A DNA stretch of 64,000 nt from Prosthecobacter debontii (lineage in GTDB: Bacteria; Verrucomicrobiota; Verrucomicrobiia; Verrucomicrobiales; Verrucomicrobiaceae), in the NCBI GenBank assembly GCA_945860295.1, contig CAMAQH010000013.1, positions 1-64,000 on the forward strand, read 5' to 3'. A model generated the notes under the pieces. It made no database searches and was not told the DNA's origin. It saw nothing but the letters and a program-made list of their open reading frames with translations. Below, one piece after another: positions 1,717 through 64,000 of the stretch (the stretch's first letter is position 1; every line of letters begins with the position of its first letter). The position numbers and the translations under genes were made by a program.

Positions 1717-2685
1717 CTATTTTTGTTTGGTGTAGTCTTGGAATCTCACGTCCAGCGCCTCCGGCTTAGGCTGGCCTTTCGCGAGGTAGAAACGGTAGCG
1801 CAGAGTGAGGCTGTCCCCTCTCTTGATCGTGTAGTCACCAGCGCCTGCGGTCTTGTCAGGCTCGAAGTCGTGCAGGCCAAAAGGATTCACAGCGAGGAGT
1901 CCGTAATCGCGGGCGTGCCAGGTGGTGGGCGAACGGAGGTTTCCGGGATGGCTGAAGATGACGACACCGACGGGGTGCCCTTTGGGATCAGGGCCGTAGT
2001 AGCAGACCCAGTTCGCGTGCTTGCCCCAGATGTCGCGATCGCGGACGCCGTTGCTGTTAAAGGCCTGTCCGGTGGATGGGCCGGTGTTCACGCCGCTCTT
2101 GCTGCTGTTCATGCTGAGCGATGGGCAGAGGCGCAGGGCCATGGTGCCTTCTTTGGTGTCACCGATGAAGACATCGCCCTCACTGGCCTTCAGCGTGATG
2201 TCGAAGTCGAGTGTCTTCTCGCCATCGGGCAGCGCAGTGATGGTGATGCGGCGCGCGTCGGTCATGACGGTCTTCTTGTCGGGTCCGATCCATTGCGTGG
2301 AGGCGGTGAAACGACCTTTATTGCCATCCGCGTGGACATCGATGAAGCCAGTGTGAGCTTGCTTGCCAAACACCTGATACTCCGCCCAGAAATTGATCTC
2401 ATTGATCCGCGAATGCCCAAACCACAGCGAGCGATGATGCGGATGGTCTACAAACATCGCCTCGCCCGGCACATCCTTTTTCATCGGAAACTCCCGCGAT
2501 ACATTCACACCCGCCGCACCAATGAGCGGATACATGTAAGGTCGCGCCACCCCCTTGGTGATGTATTCCGTGAAAAGCTGCCCATCAATCTCAACGCGCA
2601 TACTGGCATCGCTGGTTTTCAGCGTGACTGTTTGTGCGTGGGCGAACAGCGGCAGGGTGAGAAGAGCGATGGCGAGGCGGTTCAT
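1717..2685 (-). CDS. Secreted PmoA-like (DUF6807) family protein
   Basis: A 322-residue protein with a signal peptide (residues 1-17, ending AHA). It contains the DHPHHRSLWFGH stretch near residue 80 that marks the family called PmoA or DUF6807, common in Planctomycetes and Verrucomicrobia. Despite the name the family is not shown to be methane monooxygenase. It is a secreted beta-rich protein often found with glycoside hydrolases and Gfo/Idh/MocA oxidoreductases. Here it is first in a two-gene minus-strand unit with the sialidase-like gene. The 200-base gap to the divergent LysR gene should hold both promoters. The biochemical role is unknown; involvement in carbohydrate breakdown is inferred from context. 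Confidence 0.8.
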   Translation of the reverse strand: MNRLAIALLTLPLFAHAQTVTLKTSDASMRVEIDGQLFTEYITKGVARPYMYPLIGAAGVNVSREFPMKKDVPGEAMFVDHPHHRSLWFGHSRINEINFWAEYQVFGKQAHTGFIDVHADGNKGRFTASTQWIGPDKKTVMTDARRITITALPDGEKTLDFDITLKASEGDVFIGDTKEGTMALRLCPSLSMNSSKSGVNTGPSTGQAFNSNGVRDRDIWGKHANWVCYYGPDPKGHPVGVVIFSHPGNLRSPTTWHARDYGLLAVNPFGLHDFEPDKTAGAGDYTIKRGDSLTLRYRFYLAKGQPKPEALDVRFQDYTKQK

Positions 2686-2851
2686 TGGTTCGGATGCAGG
2701 GGGAAGACAGGAGAATGGGTACAGAAGATTATGATGTTCTGGAGTGATTTTCCTAGCACCTTACTGCTGTCCCTATTCTTCAGTCTATTCCACCTGCTCG
2801 ATCAATACACCCGCAGCACTCACATTTGCGCGAGCTATTCGCGGCCAACAA

Positions 2852-2867
2852 AGTAAAGTTGTTTACT
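2852..2867. promoter_or_regulatory. AGTAAA-N4-TTTACT palindrome between divergent genes
   Basis: A perfect 6-bp inverted repeat with a GTTG spacer, lying 19 bases before the LysR gene's ATG in the gap shared with the PmoA-like gene. The location suits an operator bound by the LysR protein itself or by another dimeric regulator. Operator function is inference. Confidence 0.3.
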
Positions 2868-2886
2868 CTCAGGCTAAAATTACGCC

Positions 2887-3831
2887 ATGAAAACCGACCG
2901 CCGCTTTTTCAAAGAACTCCGCTTCCGCCAGCTCCGTGCCCTGGTGGAGCTTTCGCGTCAAAAGACCTTCTCCGCCGTGGCTGCTGCGCTAAAGATGTCC
3001 GTCGTCTCAGCGTGGCGGCAGGTAAGAGCACTGGAGGAGGAGTTCGGCGTGCAACTCGTGGATACGCAAGGCCAGCAGGTGGTGCTGACAGAGGACGGAC
3101 GTCTGCTCGTAGAGATGGCTGAGCCGATGGTCGAGAGCTTCCTGTCGCTGCGCTCGGTCTTCGATGATCGCCAAGGCAAAGCGCCGCGCAAACTCACCGT
3201 CGCCGCTCCCGCTGGCGTCCTCAATGACGCCCTGCCTGATCCCGTGACGCGCTATCGTAAACAGTTTCCCAACGTCGGCCTCCGGCTCATGGAACGCCCC
3301 TCGCGCGGAGCTTTGGCGGCCCTTTTGGCCGGACAAGCCGACATTGCTATCATCGGTATGACTGCTGCCGATGAACTGCCAACGTCGCTGAGCCTGCATC
3401 GGCTCACACGCTATCCTATTCACCTGTTGTGCCCAGCGGACCACGTTTTAACTACAGCGAAAAAGCTCACCGTGAAACAGATCGCCCTGCATCCACTGGT
3501 GCTCAGCAGTGAGGACACCTCGGACCGCTCACAGATCGATCTCACCTTTGCTAATGCCGGTGTGCTCCATCAGCTCAACATCGCCATCAGCGCCTCGCGC
3601 GTGCCCATGATCACCAAGTATGTGGCGATGGGCTTCGGCGTGGCATTGCTGGCTCCAGGCGAAGTTAAGCCTCAGGTAGCCAAGCGCGCACAGCCTCAGC
3701 TCGTCTGGCGCGATGTGAGCGGTCTCTTCGGCCACGAAGAGCTCGTGCTGCTGCAAAGACAGGGCCGTTTTGAGCTGCCGCACGTGAAGGTGTTTCGCGA
3801 GTTGGTGGAGCAGTCGTTTGATGGCGGCTGA
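2887..3831 (+). CDS. LysR-family transcriptional regulator
   Basis: A 314-residue protein with an N-terminal winged helix-turn-helix (about residues 10-70; FRQLRALVELSRQKTFSAVA is typical of LysR openings) and a periplasmic-binding-like effector domain (about 95-300). Such proteins bind DNA as tetramers and respond to small metabolites. The gene is divergent from the PmoA-like/sialidase-like pair, the classic layout for a LysR regulator and its target operon, so it probably controls those genes; the ligand cannot be read from sequence. The first motif is slightly unusual: ALKMSVVSAWRQVRALEEEFG has a tryptophan where most members have a smaller residue. Confidence 0.9.
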   Translation: MKTDRRFFKELRFRQLRALVELSRQKTFSAVAAALKMSVVSAWRQVRALEEEFGVQLVDTQGQQVVLTEDGRLLVEMAEPMVESFLSLRSVFDDRQGKAPRKLTVAAPAGVLNDALPDPVTRYRKQFPNVGLRLMERPSRGALAALLAGQADIAIIGMTAADELPTSLSLHRLTRYPIHLLCPADHVLTTAKKLTVKQIALHPLVLSSEDTSDRSQIDLTFANAGVLHQLNIAISASRVPMITKYVAMGFGVALLAPGEVKPQVAKRAQPQLVWRDVSGLFGHEELVLLQRQGRFELPHVKVFRELVEQSFDGG

Positions 3832-4117
3832 GTGCCCAGAGTGGTCCGCACAGCCGGAGCGACGGAGATAGCCCGTCACAGGCTGCCCGTAGGGCGAACA
3901 AAGCGAGGCAATCTCCCGTGCGGCACGAGCGTCTCCTAACTCAGAACCTCACAGAGGCTTCGCTTCGCGGCTCGCTGGTGCGTGCTAAATTGCGCATCCG
4001 TATCAGTTCATGGCAGCTAACGATTACACGAGGGCATCGGCATCGAAACCGGCTCGTTTACTGCACTAAGCTTTCCTGTCACTACCTCGATCCGCAAGAC
4101 CGCGACATTGTTCCTCT
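3832..4117. other. Intergenic stretch without a recognised gene
   Basis: Between the LysR stop and the decayed remnants at 4118. The short open frames here have no recognisable domain, no good ribosome-binding site and no family resemblance that I can see. It is probably decayed DNA continuous with the pseudogene region that follows. Confidence 0.4.
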
Positions 4118-4340
4118 TCATGTAGCGGTATTTAGCTTTTCGTTGATGATATAGACTCGCTTCCTAGTCGGGTGATACGTCACATGTCTCAGGCCGGAAC
4201 GCGGAGCCAATATCTCGAAAGGTTGCGGCCCATTCGGCTCCAACTTTCCAGTGAGCGCATCGAGTCGATAGATCAAAATTTGATCGATACCGAGATCCGC
4301 CGAGAGCGCGAAGCGATGATGGATTATGCGAAGGCCCCGT
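4118..4340 (-). pseudogene. 6-phosphogluconolactonase (7-bladed lactonase) fragment
   Basis: On the minus strand an open stretch reads [15 protein letters not shown], then [11 protein letters not shown], then [10 protein letters not shown] and VYIINEKLNT before a TGA at 4118-4120. This order and spacing match the mid-region of the lactonase beta-propeller family, as in 6-phosphogluconolactonases that hydrolyse 6-phosphogluconolactone in the pentose phosphate pathway. Only about 65 residues of a normal 340-390 survive, with no start and no C-terminal half. It abuts a threonine dehydrogenase N-terminus in another frame, so the locus is a junction of two unrelated gene remnants. The family call rests on motif memory and needs a protein search. 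Confidence 0.6.
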
Positions 4341-4341
4341 G

Positions 4342-4568
4342 CGATTCACGCCGATGCCGACGACTTCACCGACGAACTCATGCCGCACGACCGTCGGCAC
4401 CGGGATGGTCTTCTGCTCCAAGGCGTCCCATTTGTAAACATACAGGTTCGAACCGCAGATGCCAGCCTTGCGGATATTGATGAGGACATCATTGATGCCG
4501 ACCAGCGGCGCCAGGACATTCTGGAGCCAGGGTCAGCGCTCCGCATTGGATTTGACGAGAGCCTTCAT
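4342..4568 (-). pseudogene. tdh: L-threonine 3-dehydrogenase N-terminal fragment
   Basis: From the ATG at 4566-4568 the minus strand reads MKALVKSNAER, a TGA stop, then [54 protein letters not shown]. This follows the start of zinc-dependent threonine 3-dehydrogenase, which oxidises threonine to 2-amino-3-ketobutyrate. The zinc-ligand cysteine (GICG) and the HEFVGEV segment remain, but an intact enzyme has a glycine before HEF and a threonine after GICG; here these are Arg and Ser. After about 75 residues homology stops and the lactonase fragment begins. The early nonsense codon plus truncation make it non-functional. The real tdh is presumably elsewhere. Confidence 0.75.
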
Positions 4569-4620
4569 GGATGACGAAATATTGGACTCACATCCTATAT
4601 ATTGGCAAACAAATTTTTGA

Positions 4621-6045
4621 TTACGCCAGCACTTGGCTGATCACCTGACCGAAATCACGCTCCAAGCGCTTGCGACCGGGTATCTCCAACTGATGTGGAT
4701 CGAGCCCGAGAAGCTGCATCATCGTGGCATGAACGTCGGTGACGTAATGCGGATGCTCGACGGCGTGGAAGCCGAGTTCGTCGGTGCTGCCGTGGATGGT
4801 GCCACCTTTCGTGCCGCCACCGGCCATCCAAACACTGAAGCCAAACGGATGATGGTCGCGACCGTCGCTGCCTTGCGAGCCGGGAGTGCGGCCAAACTCA
4901 GTGGCGAAGACGACGAGCGTGTCATCAAGCATACCACGTTGCTTAAGGTCTTTGAGAAGGCCAGCAATCGGTTTGTCCACTTGCTGCGCGAGCATGGAGT
5001 GATTCTTCTTTAACCCGGAGTGCGAATCCCATGCGCCAGCGGCGCCATCGCCATGCTGAAGCTGGATGAAACGCACGCCACGCTCAGCAAGACGGCGAGC
5101 CACGATGAGCTGCCGCGCAAACGGCTCGGTCACTTTGTCGTCGAGACCGTAGAGCGCTTTCGTCTCGGCACTCTCCGCATCGAGATTCATGGTCTCCGGC
5201 ACGGCGGTCTGCATGTTGTAGGCGAGTCGGTAGCTCTTCATGCGGGCGGCGAGTGTCTTGTCACCGGGATACTGCTCGGCATTGAGCGCGTTGAGTTTGT
5301 GGATGAAATCAAACTGCGCTGCCTGCTCAGCTTTGCCGACAGTAATTTCGGGTGAAGCAAAGGTGAGCGGGTTCTTCGGATCGACCTTCAAATTGATCGC
5401 GTCGTAAGCGGGGCCGAGATAATGGCCATCACGCACATCGAAGTAGCGCGGCCCCATATTGACGAAGGACGGCAGGTTGTCCGACATTGAACCCAGTCCA
5501 TAGGTGACCCACGCGCCGATGGTCGGCACACGCGGCTCCAGCATGTGGCGGCCACTGGCAAACTGGACCTGCGCACCGTGATTGTTATCCGTCGTCCACA
5601 TGCTGCGGATGAAGGCGATCTGATCCGCGCATGACCCAATGTGCGGGAACCAATCACTGATTTCGATGCCACATTGGCCGTAGCGTTTGTAGCCGACTTG
5701 CAGCGGGTAAATGACATTGCGCTGCTTGCCGTTCGCATCGTTCACCACGACGACGCGGACATTCTTGAGCTTGTCAGGCGACAGCACGCTTTTGTAGGGC
5801 GTCTCTTCGATCGACTTGCCCACATACTTCGTCAGCATCGGCTTCGGATCAAAGCTCTCCATGTGACTGACTCCACCGCGCATGAACAGCCAGATCACGC
5901 GCTTTGCTTTCTGCGGCAGCACTGGAAGTCCGCTCGGCGGCTGCCAGGCTTCTTCAGCCTTCAGCATGGACGCGACCGCGATGCTGCCGAGTCCGCCGAG
6001 GATGTCACGGCGGAGAAAGGGTGTCGGTTGATGCATGAAATTCAT
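4621..6045 (-). CDS. DUF1501 secreted protein (twin-arginine)
   Basis: A 474-residue protein of the DUF1501 family, which adopts an alkaline-phosphatase/sulfatase-like fold and is expanded in Planctomycetes and Verrucomicrobia. The N-terminus (LRRDILGGLGSIAVASML) is a twin-arginine signal, and the body carries family hallmarks: WLFMRGGVSHMESFDPKP near residue 52, RSMWTTDNNHGAQ near 145, and FATEFGRTPGSQGSDGRDHHP near 385. The start codon overlaps the stop of the upstream DUF1549/1553 gene by 4 bases (ATGA), so the two are translationally coupled. These pairs are thought to act outside the cytoplasm on polymers, but no reaction has been established. Confidence 0.9.
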   Translation of the reverse strand: MNFMHQPTPFLRRDILGGLGSIAVASMLKAEEAWQPPSGLPVLPQKAKRVIWLFMRGGVSHMESFDPKPMLTKYVGKSIEETPYKSVLSPDKLKNVRVVVVNDANGKQRNVIYPLQVGYKRYGQCGIEISDWFPHIGSCADQIAFIRSMWTTDNNHGAQVQFASGRHMLEPRVPTIGAWVTYGLGSMSDNLPSFVNMGPRYFDVRDGHYLGPAYDAINLKVDPKNPLTFASPEITVGKAEQAAQFDFIHKLNALNAEQYPGDKTLAARMKSYRLAYNMQTAVPETMNLDAESAETKALYGLDDKVTEPFARQLIVARRLAERGVRFIQLQHGDGAAGAWDSHSGLKKNHSMLAQQVDKPIAGLLKDLKQRGMLDDTLVVFATEFGRTPGSQGSDGRDHHPFGFSVWMAGGGTKGGTIHGSTDELGFHAVEHPHYVTDVHATMMQLLGLDPHQLEIPGRKRLERDFGQVISQVLA

Positions 6046-56848: not shown

Positions 56849-58258
56849 TTACAGCTTCTTGAGCAATCCCTGGAGCAGGTCACCCAGACCCTCACCACGG
56901 ATCAAGTTCTTGAGGATTCGATCCAACTTGGGCTTAACCTCAGGATCTGAAAGAGAGCCTTTCGATTCGATGTCAAAGGTCATACGACCACGCTTATCCG
57001 ACAGGGCTTTGATGACTCCGCTTGTCAGCGACTCACCCAATTTGGCTTTTGCCACGCCGGCCTGAAGTCGCGCCTGAAGCGCCGCCCCACACGAGAGGCG
57101 GAAGTCCATTTCATGCTTGTCTTGTGAGCCATTGAACCAGGAACTTTTTTCGATCAGCACCTCATACTCAGAGAAAACAAAACGTGTATCACTTCGCAGA
57201 CCGAAGAAGTTGTTTTTAAAGACCCCCTCGACAATGGCTGGCTCCAGAAGTGCACCACCAATCGACACCGGAGCTAGATCCACACCGTATTCCTGGAGCT
57301 TCTTCAACTCTTTCCCCGCAGCATCCCCGATCGTGATATGACCCGCAAGCACAGAACCCTGAGCCAAAGTCAGTTTAAGCGTCGTCGTCGGCATCCAATC
57401 ACCCGTGGCCAGATCAATTGGCACCAAATCACCCTCACCACTGAGTTTCAAATTGGCCAGCTCAGCCGGCCGCTTCACGCCGCCAATGCGGGCCTCACCA
57501 CGAACCTTGATATTAGCACCAAGCGTGGAGTGCATCCGGTTGTGGAGGGCGAGATCAGCATGCTGAATATCGATGTCAGATAGAGTGAAAAAAAAGTCAC
57601 TCACTTGAATCAGGGTCTTCTTGTTGGTGATCGTCATCTGCCCGCGCTCTAAGGAGGCGCTATTCACAGCAAAGGTATAACCAGAACTACGTTCCGTCAC
57701 CACAGGCTTTGAAGCCGCAGCGGGCGCATTGACGGGGATGGCAAGCGGCATTTCACTTTCAGCACTCAGCTTGCGAAAAAGAGCTTCCAGGCTGCTGCGA
57801 CCCTGCTCATCTTGCATCTCAGTCACGACGGGTGAATCTATTTTCAATTGCTCGATAAAGATCCGCTTATTTAGCAAATCATCCAGCTTCACAGACAACA
57901 CGATCTCAGGGATCACGATGGGGGCAATCCCATCCGCAAGAGGCGTGCGATCCGACAGAGGTTTCGCCACTTCAGCATCACGAGGGGCGATTTTTACGCC
58001 TGCAAAAACCAGTTTCGCCGGACGACTCAGCAGACTGAGATTGGCATCATCAATCTGGCAGCGGCAATTGTAGTTCTCCTCCAGCATTTTCACCCAGATC
58101 TCTGGCCCCATCTTGCGCATCACCCACCATGAAGCGCCAGCCAGGACACATCCTGCCAGTAATGCCAAAACCACTCCGACAATCACCACGATTCGGAAGA
58201 GACTGCGCGCACCACGCTTCACAGGACTACCCTCAATGACGTTCTGCATTTCATTCAT
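56849..58258 (-). CDS. AsmA/DUF748-like envelope protein
   Basis: A 469-residue protein with a cytoplasmic N-terminus, one membrane span (about residues 20-48; SLFRIVVIVGVVLALLAGCV) and a long periplasmic beta-rich part. LSRPAKLVFAGVKIAPRDA, VIPEIVLSVKLDDLLNKRIF and a C-terminal KPKLDRILKNLIRGEGLGDL are typical of the AsmA-like superfamily of lipid-transfer and envelope-biogenesis proteins. It probably helps carry or organise outer-membrane lipids, inferred from the fold. The gene converges on pheA with abutting ends (no spacer), so any terminator must lie inside coding sequence. A DUF6580 gene precedes it. Confidence 0.75.
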   Translation of the reverse strand: MNEMQNVIEGSPVKRGARSLFRIVVIVGVVLALLAGCVLAGASWWVMRKMGPEIWVKMLEENYNCRCQIDDANLSLLSRPAKLVFAGVKIAPRDAEVAKPLSDRTPLADGIAPIVIPEIVLSVKLDDLLNKRIFIEQLKIDSPVVTEMQDEQGRSSLEALFRKLSAESEMPLAIPVNAPAAASKPVVTERSSGYTFAVNSASLERGQMTITNKKTLIQVSDFFFTLSDIDIQHADLALHNRMHSTLGANIKVRGEARIGGVKRPAELANLKLSGEGDLVPIDLATGDWMPTTTLKLTLAQGSVLAGHITIGDAAGKELKKLQEYGVDLAPVSIGGALLEPAIVEGVFKNNFFGLRSDTRFVFSEYEVLIEKSSWFNGSQDKHEMDFRLSCGAALQARLQAGVAKAKLGESLTSGVIKALSDKRGRMTFDIESKGSLSDPEVKPKLDRILKNLIRGEGLGDLLQGLLKKL

Positions 58259-58303: not shown

Positions 58304-58912
58304 CTAACCAAGAACGACCTGTCTACCCCAGGGCATCTGATTCAGTTGCCGCACACGCGCTTCAGCATTGAAAGCCAAGATCAGCATGGCGCTAAAGCCC
58401 AGATCACTGAGCAGTGAAGCCCGGAAGAAAGTCCACGTCGGTGCATAACCTGGCAGACCTATCGTTAGAGCCTGCGCCCAACCCGAGAGGCTCTTGGCAT
58501 AGGCTGGCTCGACCATCCATGAGGCGGTATTGGTGACCAAGTAGAACAAAGCACTGCCTATGAACACTCCGAGCAGTGCTTGCAGAATTCCCAAACGAAC
58601 TCTCAAGCGTGAAGCGACCAAGGCAAGCGCTGCATACATCACGTAGATTGCCAGGCTCTCCAAATTCAGCGCAGAGGCAACCCCGAGCACGGTGAGATTG
58701 ATGCCAAGCATCGCCAAGGGCCATACAAACCAAGGCAGTGCGCGGGGCAGCACGAGTGTGCCGGTGAATGCTAGCGCCAACCAGGGTGAGAAATTTGGCA
58801 GTAAGCTCATCCCTGGCGACTCCAGCTTTAACCAGCGCAATACGAGAGCGCAGGTGATGAGGAGTAAAGGAACCCAAAGCATGGGTGTAGAGCGGCGTTC
58901 GGCAAGGGTCAT
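58304..58912 (-). CDS. DUF6580 family membrane protein
   Basis: A 202-residue inner-membrane protein with about six hydrophobic segments: MLWVPLLLITCALVLRWL, SLLPNFSPWLALAFTGTLVL, ALPWFVWPLAMLGINLTVLG, then SLAIYVMYAALALVASRLRV, ALLGVFIGSALFYLVTNTAS and ASLLSDLGFSAMLILAFNAE. The N-terminal P-N-F/S-P-x-x-A-x-A and late LVTNTASW stretches are family signatures of DUF6580, which structurally resembles ECF transporter S components. Its substrate, if any, is unknown. It precedes the AsmA-like gene by 45 bases on the same strand. Confidence 0.85.
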   Translation of the reverse strand: MTLAERRSTPMLWVPLLLITCALVLRWLKLESPGMSLLPNFSPWLALAFTGTLVLPRALPWFVWPLAMLGINLTVLGVASALNLESLAIYVMYAALALVASRLRVRLGILQALLGVFIGSALFYLVTNTASWMVEPAYAKSLSGWAQALTIGLPGYAPTWTFFRASLLSDLGFSAMLILAFNAEARVRQLNQMPWGRQVVLG

Positions 58913-59070: not shown

Positions 59071-60348
59071 ATGCCACCGCCACGCATTGCCATCATTGGG
59101 ACCGGAATCTCCGGTCTAGGCTGTGCGCATTTCCTGCACCGGCGTTTTGACCTAACGCTCTATGAAGCTGCAGATTACATCGGTGGGCATACAAACACAG
59201 TCACTGTCACTGAGGACGGTTGCGATTTGCCGATCGACACGGGGTTCATGGTCTTCAATCATCAGACCTATCCCCTGCTCTGCCGTCTCTTCAAAGAATT
59301 GGGTGTGGAGACCAAGCGCACGGACATGTCCTTCAGCCTGCGCCATTTACCCACGGGCTATGAATACAATGGCAAGAACCTCGACACAATCTTTGGTCAG
59401 CGCAGCAACCTGCTCAGCCCACGCTTCTGGCGCTTCCTGCTGAAAATTAAACGCTTTAATCAAGAGACGGTCGACGCAATGAACGATTCGCGCTTTGAGA
59501 GCATGAGTCTCCGGCAGTATGTCGATGCACGCGGCTACGGTGAGGATTTTTTAAATCTCTACATCATTCCCATGGGCAGCGCCGTGTGGTCCACACCGCC
59601 AGAGTTGATGCTGGATTTCCCGGCTATCACCCTGATGCATTTTTGGTTCAACCACGGCTTCCTCGGCATGAGTACGCGACATCCATGGTGGACCGTGGTC
59701 GATGGTTCACGTCAATATGTGAGAAAACTTGTGCCGCCTTTTCGTGAGCGCATTCGTCTGAACACAGCCGTTCAGCGCATTGAGCGTCAAGATGGTAAAG
59801 CCATCATCCACACTCAAGATCAGGCACCTGAAACCTACGATAAAGTTATCTTGGCCACGCACGCTCCGACCTCATTGAAAATGCTAGCTGCACCCACGGA
59901 GCTTGAAACTAAGCTGCTTTCCTGCTTTAACTACCAGCCTAATATGGCCACGCTGCATACGGATGATCGTTTCATGCCAAAGACCCGCAAATGCTGGGCT
60001 TCATGGAACTACCATGTCGAGTATGATCAGAGCGGCGTCATCCAGCCAAGTACTCACTACTGGATGAATCTGCTCCAAGGCGTGTCGGAAAAAACGAACT
60101 ACTTTGTCAGCATCAACGGCGCTGAGTCGATTGATCCTGCCAAGGTCATCAAACGCATTCCTTATGAGCACCCGCTCTTTGATGTGCAGGCCACGGCAGC
60201 TCAAAAGCGCCTGCCCGAATTGCATCAAATCTCGCGCGATCAAACAACCTACTTCTGCGGAGCTTGGCAGCGCTACGGCTTCCATGAGGATGGCTTCCTG
60301 TCAGCCGTCAATCTCTGCCGCGACCTGCTCGGAGAAGAACCCTGGTGA
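59071..60348 (+). CDS. FAD-dependent amine-oxidase-like oxidoreductase (lipid cassette)
   Basis: A 425-residue flavoprotein. The N-terminus has the dinucleotide motif IAIIGTGISGLGCAHFL then TLYEAADYIGGHTNTV; GSAVWSTPPELMLDFPAITL and YFCGAWQRYGFHEDGFLSAV (C-terminal FAD contact) are typical of the NAD/FAD protein that accompanies cyclopropane-fatty-acid-synthase-like genes in many bacteria. It probably oxidises or reduces a fatty-acyl chain or a methylated intermediate; this is not proven. It is the first gene of a six-gene operon whose members overlap or nearly overlap. The next start (TGATG) overlaps its stop. Confidence 0.88.
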   Translation: MPPPRIAIIGTGISGLGCAHFLHRRFDLTLYEAADYIGGHTNTVTVTEDGCDLPIDTGFMVFNHQTYPLLCRLFKELGVETKRTDMSFSLRHLPTGYEYNGKNLDTIFGQRSNLLSPRFWRFLLKIKRFNQETVDAMNDSRFESMSLRQYVDARGYGEDFLNLYIIPMGSAVWSTPPELMLDFPAITLMHFWFNHGFLGMSTRHPWWTVVDGSRQYVRKLVPPFRERIRLNTAVQRIERQDGKAIIHTQDQAPETYDKVILATHAPTSLKMLAAPTELETKLLSCFNYQPNMATLHTDDRFMPKTRKCWASWNYHVEYDQSGVIQPSTHYWMNLLQGVSEKTNYFVSINGAESIDPAKVIKRIPYEHPLFDVQATAAQKRLPELHQISRDQTTYFCGAWQRYGFHEDGFLSAVNLCRDLLGEEPW

Positions 60349-61145
60349 TGAATATATCATCAGCCATCTACGAATGTTCAGTCATGCATCACCGCCTGAC
60401 GCCTAAACAGCACCGCTTCGCCTATGATGTGTTTTACCTCTGGCTTGATCTGGACGAGTTGGACACGCTATCCAGCCAGCTGAGGCTCTTTAAGCGCAAT
60501 CGTTGGGCTATGTTTTCTTTCTTTGATGCGGATCACATCATGAAGGATGGACAGGAGGTGAAAGCCAACGTGCTTCAGGTGATTCGCGAGTCTGGAGTGG
60601 ATACCGCAAACATCGCCAAAGTGCGGTTGTTGACCTTCCCGCGCATCTTTGGGTACATCTTCAATCCCGTCTGCTTCTACTACTGCTTTGATGCTGATGA
60701 GCAGCCTGTCTGCGCTGTCGCAGAGGTCACAAATACGTTTCACGAACAGAAGCCGTACGTGCTCGCGAATCAGGAGGACGACCGCTTCAGGCTCATTACG
60801 CCAAAGCATTTTTATGTCTCCCCTTTTTGTGGCCTTGAACTGAATTTCGACTTCAAACTTAGACTGCCCACAGAGCATTTAGAAATCCATGTCGATGACC
60901 GCCAAGGCGAAGATCGCGTCATCCTTACCAGTCTTCAGGGAAAGCGCCGCCCGCTCACCGATTCAGGACTACTGGCCTGTGCATTCAAGTATCCGCTACT
61001 AACCCTGAAGGTGATTTTTCTCATTCACTGGCATGCTTTTCGCCTCTGGATGAAGGGCCTGCACGTTTATCGAAAAAGAGAAGACACCGACCTCCAACGC
61101 GGTGTCTATCGCCCGCACCGCTCCATAACTCCGCAAGAACCATGA
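60348..61145 (+). CDS. DUF1365 protein (lipid cassette)
   Basis: A 265-residue DUF1365 protein from ATG 60348, overlapping the preceding stop by one base; a GTG at 60345 is the alternative. Family blocks: ECSVMHHRLTPKQHRFAYDV near the start, VRLLTFPRIFGYIFNPVCFY near 100, YVSPFCGLELNFDFKLRLP and WHAFRLWMKGL near the end. DUF1365 occurs almost always between an FAD oxidoreductase and a CFA-synthase-like methyltransferase, so it probably handles a fatty-acyl or phospholipid substrate. No catalytic motif is established. Its stop overlaps the next start by 4 bases (ATGA). Confidence 0.9.
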   Translation: MNISSAIYECSVMHHRLTPKQHRFAYDVFYLWLDLDELDTLSSQLRLFKRNRWAMFSFFDADHIMKDGQEVKANVLQVIRESGVDTANIAKVRLLTFPRIFGYIFNPVCFYYCFDADEQPVCAVAEVTNTFHEQKPYVLANQEDDRFRLITPKHFYVSPFCGLELNFDFKLRLPTEHLEIHVDDRQGEDRVILTSLQGKRRPLTDSGLLACAFKYPLLTLKVIFLIHWHAFRLWMKGLHVYRKREDTDLQRGVYRPHRSITPQEP

Positions 61146-62419
61146 ACGCCACCACACTCAAACGTAACAATGGCCAAGCCGCCCCAGCCATGGCTCAAGG
61201 CCCTAGCTTCTATGAGCGACTCGTCATGGGCACGCTGCGCAAATTCCCTCTCGGTGGCCTGCGCATGACGCTGCCAGACGGGCGCGAGCACCGACTCGGA
61301 GATCCCAAAAGTCCAATCACAGCAGAGATCAGAGTCACCAATCAAGATTTCTTCCGTAAGTGCGCCTTGTATGGAAACGTTGGCTTTGGTGAGTCCTATG
61401 TTGAGAGTGACTGGGAGACCGATGATATCTCCCGCGTGATCTCATGGTTTATCCAAAACATCGTAGCGACACAAGGAACGGAGTCTTCATCCACCCGACT
61501 CGCTGGCACAAATTTACTCAAGGCTTACAACCGCATTCTGCACCTACTCAGGCCAAACAGTGTGAAGACAAGCCGACGCAATATTTCAGATCACTATGAT
61601 CTTGGGAACGACTTTTATTCCCTCTGGCTGGACAAGACCATGACCTACTCATCGGCACGCTTTACCCGTGATGGTCAGCCACTCGAAGACGCACAGAACG
61701 CCAAGTATGAAGCGCTCTGCCAGAAGCTGCAGCTCAAAGCCACTGATCATGTGCTGGAGATCGGCTGCGGCTGGGCAGGATTCTGCACCTATGCTGCGCG
61801 TGAGTATAGCTGCCGAGTCACATGCCTCACGATCTCTGAAGAGCAGTTAAAATATGCGACGGATCGTGTGAAGCTTGAAGGTCTGGATCACCTCGTCGAA
61901 ATCCGACTTCAGGATTATCGCCACGTCACCGGGCAGTTCGATAAGATCGCTTCTATCGAAATGCTGGAGGCCGTAGGTGAAGCTTATGTGGACACCTATT
62001 TTGCCAAGTGTCATGAGGTGCTCAAACCGAATGGACTACTTGCTTTTCAAGTCATAACGGTGCCTGACTGCAAATATCGAAACATGGTGAAGAGCGTGGA
62101 TTGGATTCAAAAGCACATTTTCCCTGGATCACTCCTGCTCAGTCTGGGGCGCATCAATCAAGCCATGAACAAGACTGGCGACATGTTCCTACATGGCGTC
62201 GAAGACCTCGGTGCTAGCTATGTAAAAACTCTGCGCATGTGGCATGAGCGCCTGAACTCAAAGCTCGATGAAGTGAAGGAGCTTGGCTTTGATGAGCGGT
62301 TCATTCGCAAATGGAACTTCTATTTCCAATACTGCGAAGCTGCGTTTGCGACCCGCAACATCAGCGTCGTCCAAGCGGTCTATACCCGCCCGAATAATAG
62401 CACACTCGCGCGGTCATGA
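61142..62419 (+). CDS. Cyclopropane-fatty-acyl-phospholipid-synthase-like methyltransferase
   Basis: A 425-residue SAM-dependent methyltransferase of the CFA-synthase family. NISDHYDLGNDFYSLWLDKT then MTYSSARF precedes SAM motif I (VLEIGCGWAGFCTYAAREY near residue 203), LTISEEQLKYATDR and FDKIASIEMLEAVGEAY, followed by FPGSLL and the C-terminal FYFQYCEAAFATRNI. CFA synthases methylate cis double bonds of membrane phospholipid acyl chains, giving cyclopropane or, with partner reductases, methyl-branched or furan fatty acids. The partners here (FAD oxidoreductase, DUF1365, DUF1295) suggest a product beyond a simple cyclopropane ring. It overlaps both neighbours by 4 bases. Confidence 0.92.
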   Translation: MNATTLKRNNGQAAPAMAQGPSFYERLVMGTLRKFPLGGLRMTLPDGREHRLGDPKSPITAEIRVTNQDFFRKCALYGNVGFGESYVESDWETDDISRVISWFIQNIVATQGTESSSTRLAGTNLLKAYNRILHLLRPNSVKTSRRNISDHYDLGNDFYSLWLDKTMTYSSARFTRDGQPLEDAQNAKYEALCQKLQLKATDHVLEIGCGWAGFCTYAAREYSCRVTCLTISEEQLKYATDRVKLEGLDHLVEIRLQDYRHVTGQFDKIASIEMLEAVGEAYVDTYFAKCHEVLKPNGLLAFQVITVPDCKYRNMVKSVDWIQKHIFPGSLLLSLGRINQAMNKTGDMFLHGVEDLGASYVKTLRMWHERLNSKLDEVKELGFDERFIRKWNFYFQYCEAAFATRNISVVQAVYTRPNNSTLARS

Positions 62420-62754
62420 TCCTCACGCTCCGCATCTTCTTCATCGTGGTCCTCGCATCCATGCTCTGCGTCACGACTTGGGCCAGCACGCATGTCGCGG
62501 TTTGGAAACTACCTTATGAGACTTGGACGCATCCGTGGTTCATCGCGACTTTGTTTGATGCCTACTGGGGCTTCCTGACTTTCTACTGCTGGCTGGTTTA
62601 TAAAGAGGTGTCATGGGTGGCCCGCATCGCTTGGTTACCCAGCATCTTATTGCTCGGAAACATCGCCATGGCCATTTACGCGCTCATCCAGCTATTTAAA
62701 GCGCCACTGAATGCTCGGATCGAAGACGTGCTGATTCGGAGGAGTGCGAGGTGA
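62416..62754 (+). CDS. DUF1475 small membrane protein (lipid cassette)
   Basis: A 112-residue membrane protein with about three hydrophobic segments: LRIFFIVVLASMLCVTTWAS, HPWFIATLFDAYWGFLTFYC and ILLLGNIAMAIYALIQLF. The YWGFLTFYCW and EVSWVARIAW stretches match DUF1475. The role is unknown; in this cassette it may be a membrane partner of the methyltransferase or of the C-terminal DUF1295 protein. Its ATG overlaps the previous stop (ATGA), and its stop overlaps the next GTG start. Confidence 0.85.
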   Translation: MILTLRIFFIVVLASMLCVTTWASTHVAVWKLPYETWTHPWFIATLFDAYWGFLTFYCWLVYKEVSWVARIAWLPSILLLGNIAMAIYALIQLFKAPLNARIEDVLIRRSAR

Positions 62755-63233
62755 TTGGCCAAAAGGCTTCTCTGTGGCAGCTCTGGATCACTCATCCTAT
62801 CCTGCAACAGCTCACCCAAGGAGTCTCACCACCAAAGATTGCCCAAGCCATCTCTTATGGGATCACTCTCGGCCTGTTTCCCATCCTTGGATCAAACACT
62901 ATACTCACACTGGCTGTGGGTGTCACATTGCGGCTAAACCAGCCCATCTTGCAGGTCTTCAAAACACTTACTTACCCCTTTCAATGGGTTACAGTTTTCG
63001 GATTCTATCGCGCAGGCGAATGGCTTTTTAATGCGCCACATGTCAGCATTCACATTCCCACGATGATGAAGCGTTTTTTTGCTGAGCCAGGCCCATTCTT
63101 TAAAGACTACGGTATGACAGCACTCTACGGCATCGCTGTTTGGTTGATACTCGCGCCTGCCATCGGCTGGCTCATTTACGTCATCACCAAGATCATGATC
63201 GAAAAACTGGTCTCCCTGAAAAACACACACTAG
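62751..63233 (+). CDS. DUF2062 membrane protein (lipid cassette)
   Basis: A 160-residue DUF2062 protein from a GTG start overlapping the previous stop. Family blocks: LTQGVSPPKIAQAISYGITL, GLFPILGSNTILTLAVGV and RLNQPILQVFKTLTYPFQW, with two to three membrane segments. DUF2062 domains are often attached to glycosyltransferases or other lipid-acting enzymes and may organise membrane substrates; no activity is known. Translational coupling through overlapping codons ties it to the cassette. Confidence 0.87.
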   Translation: MIGQKASLWQLWITHPILQQLTQGVSPPKIAQAISYGITLGLFPILGSNTILTLAVGVTLRLNQPILQVFKTLTYPFQWVTVFGFYRAGEWLFNAPHVSIHIPTMMKRFFAEPGPFFKDYGMTALYGIAVWLILAPAIGWLIYVITKIMIEKLVSLKNTH

Positions 63234-63247
63234 CAGCCCATCGCTTC

Positions 63248-64000
63248 ATGATCATAGCAGCCCTCATCCTACTCGCCCTTTTTCTGTTTACTTGGTGGCT
63301 CAGTGTCAGGCTCGACAACTATTCGTTTGTGGATGTCACATGGTCGCTCGCCTTTGCCCCCGTTGCCGTTTGGCTGGCCTTTTCAGGAGAAGGTTGGCTA
63401 ACACGGCGCTACGCGATTGCCACTCTGGTTTCCACCTGGAGCCTGCGCCTTGGCATTCATTTGTGGCGGCGCGTGGCCAGTCATCATCCAAAGGAAGATG
63501 TGCGTTATGCGGTGCTTCGTGAGAAATGGAAGGTCAATCCGCCACGCGCTTTCCTTTGGTTCTTCCTGATGCAGGCTGCGCTGGTCTGGCTGCTCATGCT
63601 GCCGGTGTATTTGATCGCTCAGCAGTCAGCCACAGGCTTTCACACTCTTGAATGGCTAGGTCTGGCCACTTGGACAATAGCGCTCATCGGAGAAGGTGTC
63701 GCAGATGCGCAGCTAGCTCGTTTCAAGAAACTTGGTAAAGGCATCTGCCAAAAGGGGCTTTGGCACTACAGTCGGCATCCGAATTACTTTTTTCAGAGCC
63801 TGCTCTGGTGGGGACTTTTTCTCATGGCGCTGCCTACACCCTGGGGGTTGACAGCGATCATCGCTCCCGTGGTGATGCTGCATTTTCTGCTCAACGTCAC
63901 CGGTATTCCGCTGACGGAAAAGCTCTCTGTCGAGAAACGGGGTGACGCCTACCGGGAGTATCAACGCAGCACGAGCGCCTTTGTGCCTTGGTTCCGCAAA
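63248..64000 (+). CDS. DUF1295 steroid-reductase-like membrane protein (partial, cut by window end)
   Basis: A membrane protein beginning at ATG 63248 (MIIAALILLALFLFTWWLSV) and open to the last base, giving 251 visible residues without a stop. FVDVTWSLAFAPVAVWLAF, STWSLRLGIHLWRR, WHYSRHPNYFFQSLLWWGLF near 175 and EKLSVEKRGDAYREYQRSTS match DUF1295, which belongs with 3-oxo-5-alpha-steroid 4-dehydrogenase and isoprenylcysteine methyltransferase-type folds. Most members are about 260 residues, so only a few are missing. In lipid cassettes it is a candidate reductase of the modified acyl chain. It follows DUF2062 by 14 bases. Confidence 0.9.
   Translation, partial: MIIAALILLALFLFTWWLSVRLDNYSFVDVTWSLAFAPVAVWLAFSGEGWLTRRYAIATLVSTWSLRLGIHLWRRVASHHPKEDVRYAVLREKWKVNPPRAFLWFFLMQAALVWLLMLPVYLIAQQSATGFHTLEWLGLATWTIALIGEGVADAQLARFKKLGKGICQKGLWHYSRHPNYFFQSLLWWGLFLMALPTPWGLTAIIAPVVMLHFLLNVTGIPLTEKLSVEKRGDAYREYQRSTSAFVPWFRK

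Follow-up and report, generated by a model that had tools for sequence, protein, structure and literature searches.

The 64,000-nucleotide stretch of Prosthecobacter debontii DNA analysed here (the window) ends in a run of six closely packed genes. The locus raises the question of which lipid these genes make, and of whether the three unknown families encoded in their second half (DUF1475, DUF2062 and DUF1295) belong to the same pathway. Six open reading frames, read from the sequence, lie on the + strand of the contig between 59071 and 64006, where the sequence-only reading had placed them, and all six products were named above the cut-offs in a Pfam search:

59071..60348, + strand: UfaD-like FAD oxidoreductase, 425 aa (Pfam Amino_oxidase 2e-24, NAD_binding_8)
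60348..61145, + strand: UfaO-like DUF1365 protein, 265 aa (Pfam DUF1365 1.8e-80)
61142..62419, + strand: UfaM-like SAM methyltransferase of the CFA family, 425 aa (Pfam CMAS 1.7e-83)
62416..62754, + strand: DUF1475 small helical membrane protein, 112 aa (Pfam DUF1475 1.7e-8)
62751..63233, + strand: DUF2062 membrane protein, divergent, 160 aa (Pfam DUF2062 1.1e-11)
63248..64000 in the window, + strand: DUF1295 membrane protein, candidate member of the SRD5A/ICMT superfamily, 252 aa (Pfam DUF1295 7.3e-63)

The last of these genes reaches its stop at contig position 64006, 6 bases past the window. Start-to-stop overlaps through five genes had been described, and there are indeed four overlaps of 1 to 4 bases: one base at the ufaD/ufaO junction (TGATG), four at both the ufaO/ufaM and ufaM/DUF1475 junctions (ATGA), and four at the DUF1475/DUF2062 junction (GTGA). 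DUF1295 is set off by 14 bases between the DUF2062 stop and its own ATG at 63248. The operon was taken to end at DUF1295 because the downstream gene, argJ, is on the opposite strand. Upstream, on the - strand, an AsmA/DUF748-like gene (56849-58258) and a gene for a DUF6580 membrane protein (58304-58912) point away from the operon. Promoter and terminator scans returned no more sites than were found in shuffled sequences.

Furan fatty acids (FuFA), membrane lipids that act as antioxidants, are rare and have been described from a small number of other bacteria. Lemke et al. 2020 (PMC7380195) showed for Rhodobacter sphaeroides and Rhodopseudomonas palustris that the 18:1 chain is first methylated by UfaM and then desaturated by UfaD to 11Me-10t,12t-18:2. 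UfaO, a DUF1365 protein, converts this to the furan acid 9M5-FuFA in an O2-using step, and a further methylation by FufM leads to 9D5-FuFA. The genes are RPA2571-2570-2569 (ufaD-ufaO-ufaM) and RPA0924 (fufM) in R. palustris, and RSP1091 (UfaD), RSP1090 (UfaO) and RSP2144 (UfaM) in R. sphaeroides. A deletion of RPA0923 is also among the published strains. According to the same study, RPA2571-2570-2569 were necessary in R. palustris and sufficient for 9M5-FuFA in an R. sphaeroides triple mutant, and deletion of RSP1087-1089, the other operon genes, was without effect in R. sphaeroides.

By Pfam assignment and coordinates, the FAD oxidoreductase, DUF1365 protein and CFA-like methyltransferase of the window are encoded together in the order of RPA2571-2569. 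The window operon and the published pathway, likened here through families, order and the published descriptions, thus share three families in identical order, and in both R. palustris and the window genome a second methyltransferase of the FufM type is encoded apart from the trio. The proposal of a lipid-modification operon was borne out by these families and their order, and the first three genes, which had been called a known co-occurring trio, correspond to the published ufaD-ufaO-ufaM (PMC7380195). The trio itself, including the function of DUF1365, is not new (PMC7380195). The operon most likely makes FuFA, with a probability of roughly three in four. The observations made here that bear on this reading are the gene families, their order, their linkage, nested phylogenetic profiles and active-site substitutions.

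The UfaD-like protein gave weak NCBIfam matches to phytoene desaturase, HpnE and protoporphyrinogen oxidase, and is predicted to be the desaturase of the methylated acyl chain. The UfaO-like protein is the predicted O2-dependent, furan-forming enzyme. The window UfaM and E. coli Cfa, about 38% identical, belong to a common CMAS/CFA family and the E239 and Y317 positions are retained, but the window protein differs from Cfa in having serine for C139, glutamine for H266 and alanine for H240. In Cfa, H266 is part of the bicarbonate site, and the window protein lacks this histidine. The H266 to Q and H240 to A substitutions were present in all 129 UfaM copies from the phylum (some of these being duplicates of one genome), and likewise in the DUF1365-adjoining copies of Azospirillum, Azoarcus and Streptomyces, that is, in alphaproteobacterial, betaproteobacterial and actinobacterial proteins. 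A fusion of UfaO and UfaM of about 665 aa was found in the distant phylum members G155 and G407. The two proteins form one polypeptide at L163:2714-4717 (667 aa) and L166:2368-4356 (662 aa), and are also joined in L164 (frame 2170-5376). The 1068-aa frame of L164 was considered as a triple fusion and rejected, as its first 400 residues did not match UfaD.

Linkage of DUF1475 and DUF2062 to the trio in other genomes was looked for and found. Among 115 genomes of the same genus, family and order, DUF1365 was detected in 67, DUF1475 in 61 and both in 59, counts that are low because Pfam passes over some DUF1475 genes seen by tblastn (in G048 and G061, for example). DUF1365 and DUF1475 were within 6 kb on one strand in 46 of the 59 genomes having both, and the cluster-type DUF2062 adjoined DUF1475 in all 46 genomes that had these two. 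When GTDB genomes were scanned with an alignment of DUF1475, 260 homologous loci were found, of which the best 80 were taken for neighbourhood analysis. A few MAG titles apart, nearly all of these best 80 of 260 were titled Verrucomicrobiota, and they included Prosthecobacter, Brevifollis, Verrucomicrobium, Opitutae, Chthoniobacter and Limisphaerales. Counted over those of the best 80 with sufficient flanking sequence, the neighbours of DUF1475 were DUF1295 (70 of 71), UfaM (66 of 72), UfaO (63 of 69), FufM (61 of 68), UfaD (58 of 68), DUF2062 (51 of 76) and a fatty acid desaturase (40 of 62). The commonest order, desaturase-UfaD-UfaO-UfaM-DUF1475-DUF2062-DUF1295-FufM, was found at 28 of the best 80 of 260 loci, and 11 further loci of this set differed from it only in missing DUF2062.

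The gene arrangement is not due to chance, since the same order recurs in dozens of genomes. What is new is the place of the trio in a recurrent Verrucomicrobiota cluster, desaturase-ufaD-ufaO-ufaM-DUF1475-(DUF2062)-DUF1295-fufM. Downstream of the window trio come DUF1475, DUF2062 and DUF1295, which are absent from the description of the Rhodobacter and Rhodopseudomonas pathway in the examined passages of PMC7380195, and most relatives of the window, unlike those two genera, have FufM and the desaturase inside the cluster. A literature search found no paper linking FuFA to Verrucomicrobiota and none linking DUF1295 to furan. From the recurrent cluster, FuFA are to be expected in Verrucomicrobiota of soil and freshwater, and the three unknown families would be narrowed to one pathway across the whole phylum.

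The phylogenetic profiles of these genes were nested. In a sample of 387 genomes from the phylum, DUF1475 was found in 33, FufM in 73 and UfaO in 89; all 33 genomes with DUF1475 also had FufM and UfaO, and all 73 with FufM had UfaO. DUF1295 was counted in 357 genomes, and 72 of the 73 in which it was found had UfaO. The spacing between DUF1295 and FufM was less than 200 bases in 45 of the 63 genomes having both. Fisher values for these associations, from 1e-18 to 1e-63, are descriptive only and overstate significance, as related genomes are not independent. DUF1475 is dispensable for the core pathway, because 56 of the 89 UfaO genomes in the 387-genome sample were without a DUF1475 match. In two genomes (G155 and G360) the DUF1475-DUF2062-DUF1295-FufM block was located on another contig or 30 kb from UfaO. 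Five others (G007, G015, G028, G040 and G043) retained the block whole or in part while a distinct version of the trio lay elsewhere, and their UfaO was 45-48% identical to that of the window, compared to 67-80% in several intact-cluster genomes of the genus. Since the block was kept with a UfaO of only 45-48% identity, the accessory module apparently also functions after the trio has been exchanged.

In the cluster, the gene after DUF1295 encodes a CFA-superfamily methyltransferase; the best solved match of the copy in L067 was coclaurine N-methyltransferase (6gkv), an enzyme that the Arabidopsis protein AT4G33110 resembles. The cluster methyltransferase was named FufM because FufM of R. palustris (RPA0924) is reported to be 26% identical to UfaM and 38% identical to AT4G33110 (PMC7380195). 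The FufM homologue of the window genome (G000) is on contig C1 (L154:8184-9227), and is 61% identical to the L067 copy and 25% identical to the window UfaM. The gene immediately after it (L154:9228-9974) encodes an RMD1-3-family TPR protein that probably has a lipoprotein signal, and the same TPR gene was 3' of FufM at 21 of 60 loci. Contig C43 encodes a desaturase with 52% identity to that of the cluster. As the window genome has fufM, on another contig, dimethyl FuFA is probably made. The parts for dimethyl FuFA are present but dispersed, therefore the window operon covers only part of the pathway, and the earlier claim of a complete pathway in one operon does not hold.

The DUF1475 protein had a compact, helical, membrane-type AlphaFold2 model (pLDDT 89), which matched no fold in the PDB. 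Its invariant residues were W22, D48, E64 and G81. The Pfam family (PF07343) has 236 positions, and the 112-aa bacterial protein matches either the first or the second half (for example L003-L022), so that the long members of the family look like tandem duplications of a 112-aa unit. The suggestion that DUF1475 is a form of DUF2177, a small membrane protein encoded in FuFA loci of Alphaproteobacteria, was rejected, as the profiles were dissimilar. The DUF2062 model was also helical (pLDDT 90), and its fold search against the PDB gave nothing with E below 2. Operon-type DUF2062 copies scored about 24-52 bits, compared to 66-122 for the usual copies elsewhere in the genomes. DUF2062 as a generally pathway-specific family was rejected: most copies are elsewhere, and only the divergent, low-scoring class is in the cluster.

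DUF1295 had about 50 invariant positions, including the motif SRHPNYFF...W, and weaker Pfam matches to PEMT and Steroid_dh as well as weak ICMT matches. Compared with solved structures, its profile gave ICMT 4a2n at E 0.023 and SRD5A2 7bw1 at E 0.21, both below significance. In the second of these below-significance matches, the invariant N-Y-F-F plus following W aligned with the region of SRD5A2 N193. These weak matches point to the SRD5A/ICMT superfamily, with a sequence that fits a reductase and a methyltransferase alike. Functions for three DUF families had been expected from this operon. That of DUF1365 was already published (PMC7380195). DUF1475, DUF2062 and DUF1295 cannot yet be given one, since the published trio yields the monomethyl furan acid without further genes.

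Participation of these three proteins in FuFA metabolism is likely. The main alternative is that the trio makes FuFA and that DUF1475, DUF2062 and DUF1295 are mere neighbours through operon inheritance, with general membrane functions. This would agree with the sufficiency of UfaD, UfaO and UfaM for 9M5-FuFA in R. sphaeroides and the silent RSP1087-1089 deletion (both PMC7380195), with the lack of DUF2062 at 25 of 76 DUF1475 loci (among the best 80 of 260), and with the many UfaO genomes that do not have DUF1475. However, mere neighbours would hardly explain why DUF1475 never occurred without UfaO and FufM in 387 genomes, why the block from DUF1475 to FufM persists apart from the trio in G155 and G360, why five relatives hold it whole or in part despite a distinct trio elsewhere, or why the DUF1295-FufM adjacency recurs in other phyla, and we regard this explanation as unlikely.

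Still less probable is a cyclopropane or methyl-branched acyl chain as the product rather than a furan. UfaM does belong to the CFA family, with the identity to E. coli Cfa given above, and in plants certain relatives that carry a fused UfaD-like domain produce cyclopropane fatty acids, which was counted in favour of a cyclopropane. Against this, the histidine replacements H266Q and H240A are universal in the UfaM family, and the constant pairing with DUF1365 (UfaO, the O2-dependent furan step) and with FufM would have no purpose in cyclopropane synthesis. Of the three products that had been considered, methyl-branched, cyclopropane or furan, the furan is thus the best supported. A third alternative concerns DUF1295 only, which could be a membrane SAM methyltransferase of the ICMT/PEMT kind, adding a methyl or capping group, rather than an oxidoreductase. 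The slight lead of 4a2n over 7bw1 and the weak PEMT and ICMT Pfam matches are in its favour, but both structure matches are below significance, and the Steroid_dh match and the alignment of N-Y-F-F...W to the SRD5A2 N193 region argue the other way; this possibility is unlikely too, though less so than the other two.

For the favoured reading, FuFA synthesis, the chemistry of UfaM, UfaD, UfaO and FufM is carried over from published work on relatives, and we infer that the window proteins catalyze the same steps. With SAM as methyl donor, UfaM would methylate a cis-unsaturated acyl chain of a phospholipid. Removal of two hydrogens by UfaD would leave a conjugated methyl-diene, UfaO would insert an oxygen from O2 and close the monomethyl furan ring, and the FufM homologue encoded on contig C1 of the same genome would add the second methyl group. 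Any role of DUF1475, DUF2062 and DUF1295 is likewise what we infer: they may constitute an accessory module in the membrane whose evolutionary ties are to FufM and the FuFA pathway, not to the formation of the ring. The DUF1295 protein probably acts on FuFA or a derivative as a membrane-bound enzyme of the SRD5A/ICMT superfamily; for DUF1475 and DUF2062, a role as small partners in the membrane is probable. As the steady partner of FufM in several phyla, DUF1295 is the best candidate for a missing step.

A far more speculative suggestion, a guess from chemistry to which we give little weight, is that spent FuFA is repaired by DUF1295, acting as an NADPH-dependent enone reductase. Oxidised furans ring-open to unsaturated diketones. 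FuFA are destroyed by singlet oxygen (review, PMC6852236). A furan ring that quenched singlet oxygen or radicals would open to the unsaturated diketone, DUF1295 would reduce the double bond to leave a 1,4-diketone that could be re-closed to the furan (Paal-Knorr), and DUF1475 and DUF2062 would serve as its membrane partners. If true, FuFA would be a recyclable membrane antioxidant, and the association of the module with FufM would be accounted for.

Beyond the phylum, a plasmid search for DUF1475 gave no match. DUF1295 was found 22-120 bases 5' of FufM in plasmid records of Acinetobacter, Caballeronia, Cupriavidus, Shinella and Ensifer, which are alpha-, beta- and gammaproteobacterial. A plasmid locus of Streptomyces sp. 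NBC_00158 (L160) encodes FAD oxidoreductase, DUF1365, CFA-like and DUF1295 proteins in the order of window genes 1-3 and 6, but is without DUF1475 and DUF2062 and has an alpha/beta hydrolase after DUF1295. Two plasmid-labelled records, NZ_AP026896.1 (Aeromonas caviae) and CP125156.1 (Klebsiella pneumoniae), are about 5 Mb and look like misfiled chromosomes.

Loci of the ECF11 (RpoE-ChrR) singlet-oxygen regulon in Phyllobacterium (L157), Azospirillum (L158) and Qingshengfaniella (L159) contain the UfaD-UfaO pair, sometimes with UfaM. As in the window, they encode small membrane DUF proteins, and L157 has DUF1295 nearby. Unlike the window, they contain genes for sigma and anti-sigma factors, and in place of DUF1475 and DUF2062 they have DUF2177, DUF3833, SDR or photolyase genes. 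Alphaproteobacterial UfaD-UfaO loci encoded sigma factors together with ChrR or a cupin protein, whereas the window operon, compared with Rhodobacter and Rhodopseudomonas, has no adjoining ChrR or ECF sigma genes. The only ChrR match in the window genome was partial, at 37 bits against a cut-off of 124.5; ChrR regulation in this genome is thus unsupported, and the ECF11/ChrR control known elsewhere may not apply here. In Chlamydomonas, the SAK1 regulon includes CFA1, CFA2 (also called CPLD27, a coclaurine N-methyltransferase), DUF1295 and DUF2177, all induced by singlet oxygen in a SAK1-dependent manner (PMC4067076). Given these families, the FuFA link may extend to algae and plants. The CFA, coclaurine-N-methyltransferase-like, DUF1295 and DUF2177 families of the SAK1 regulon occur also in bacterial FuFA loci.
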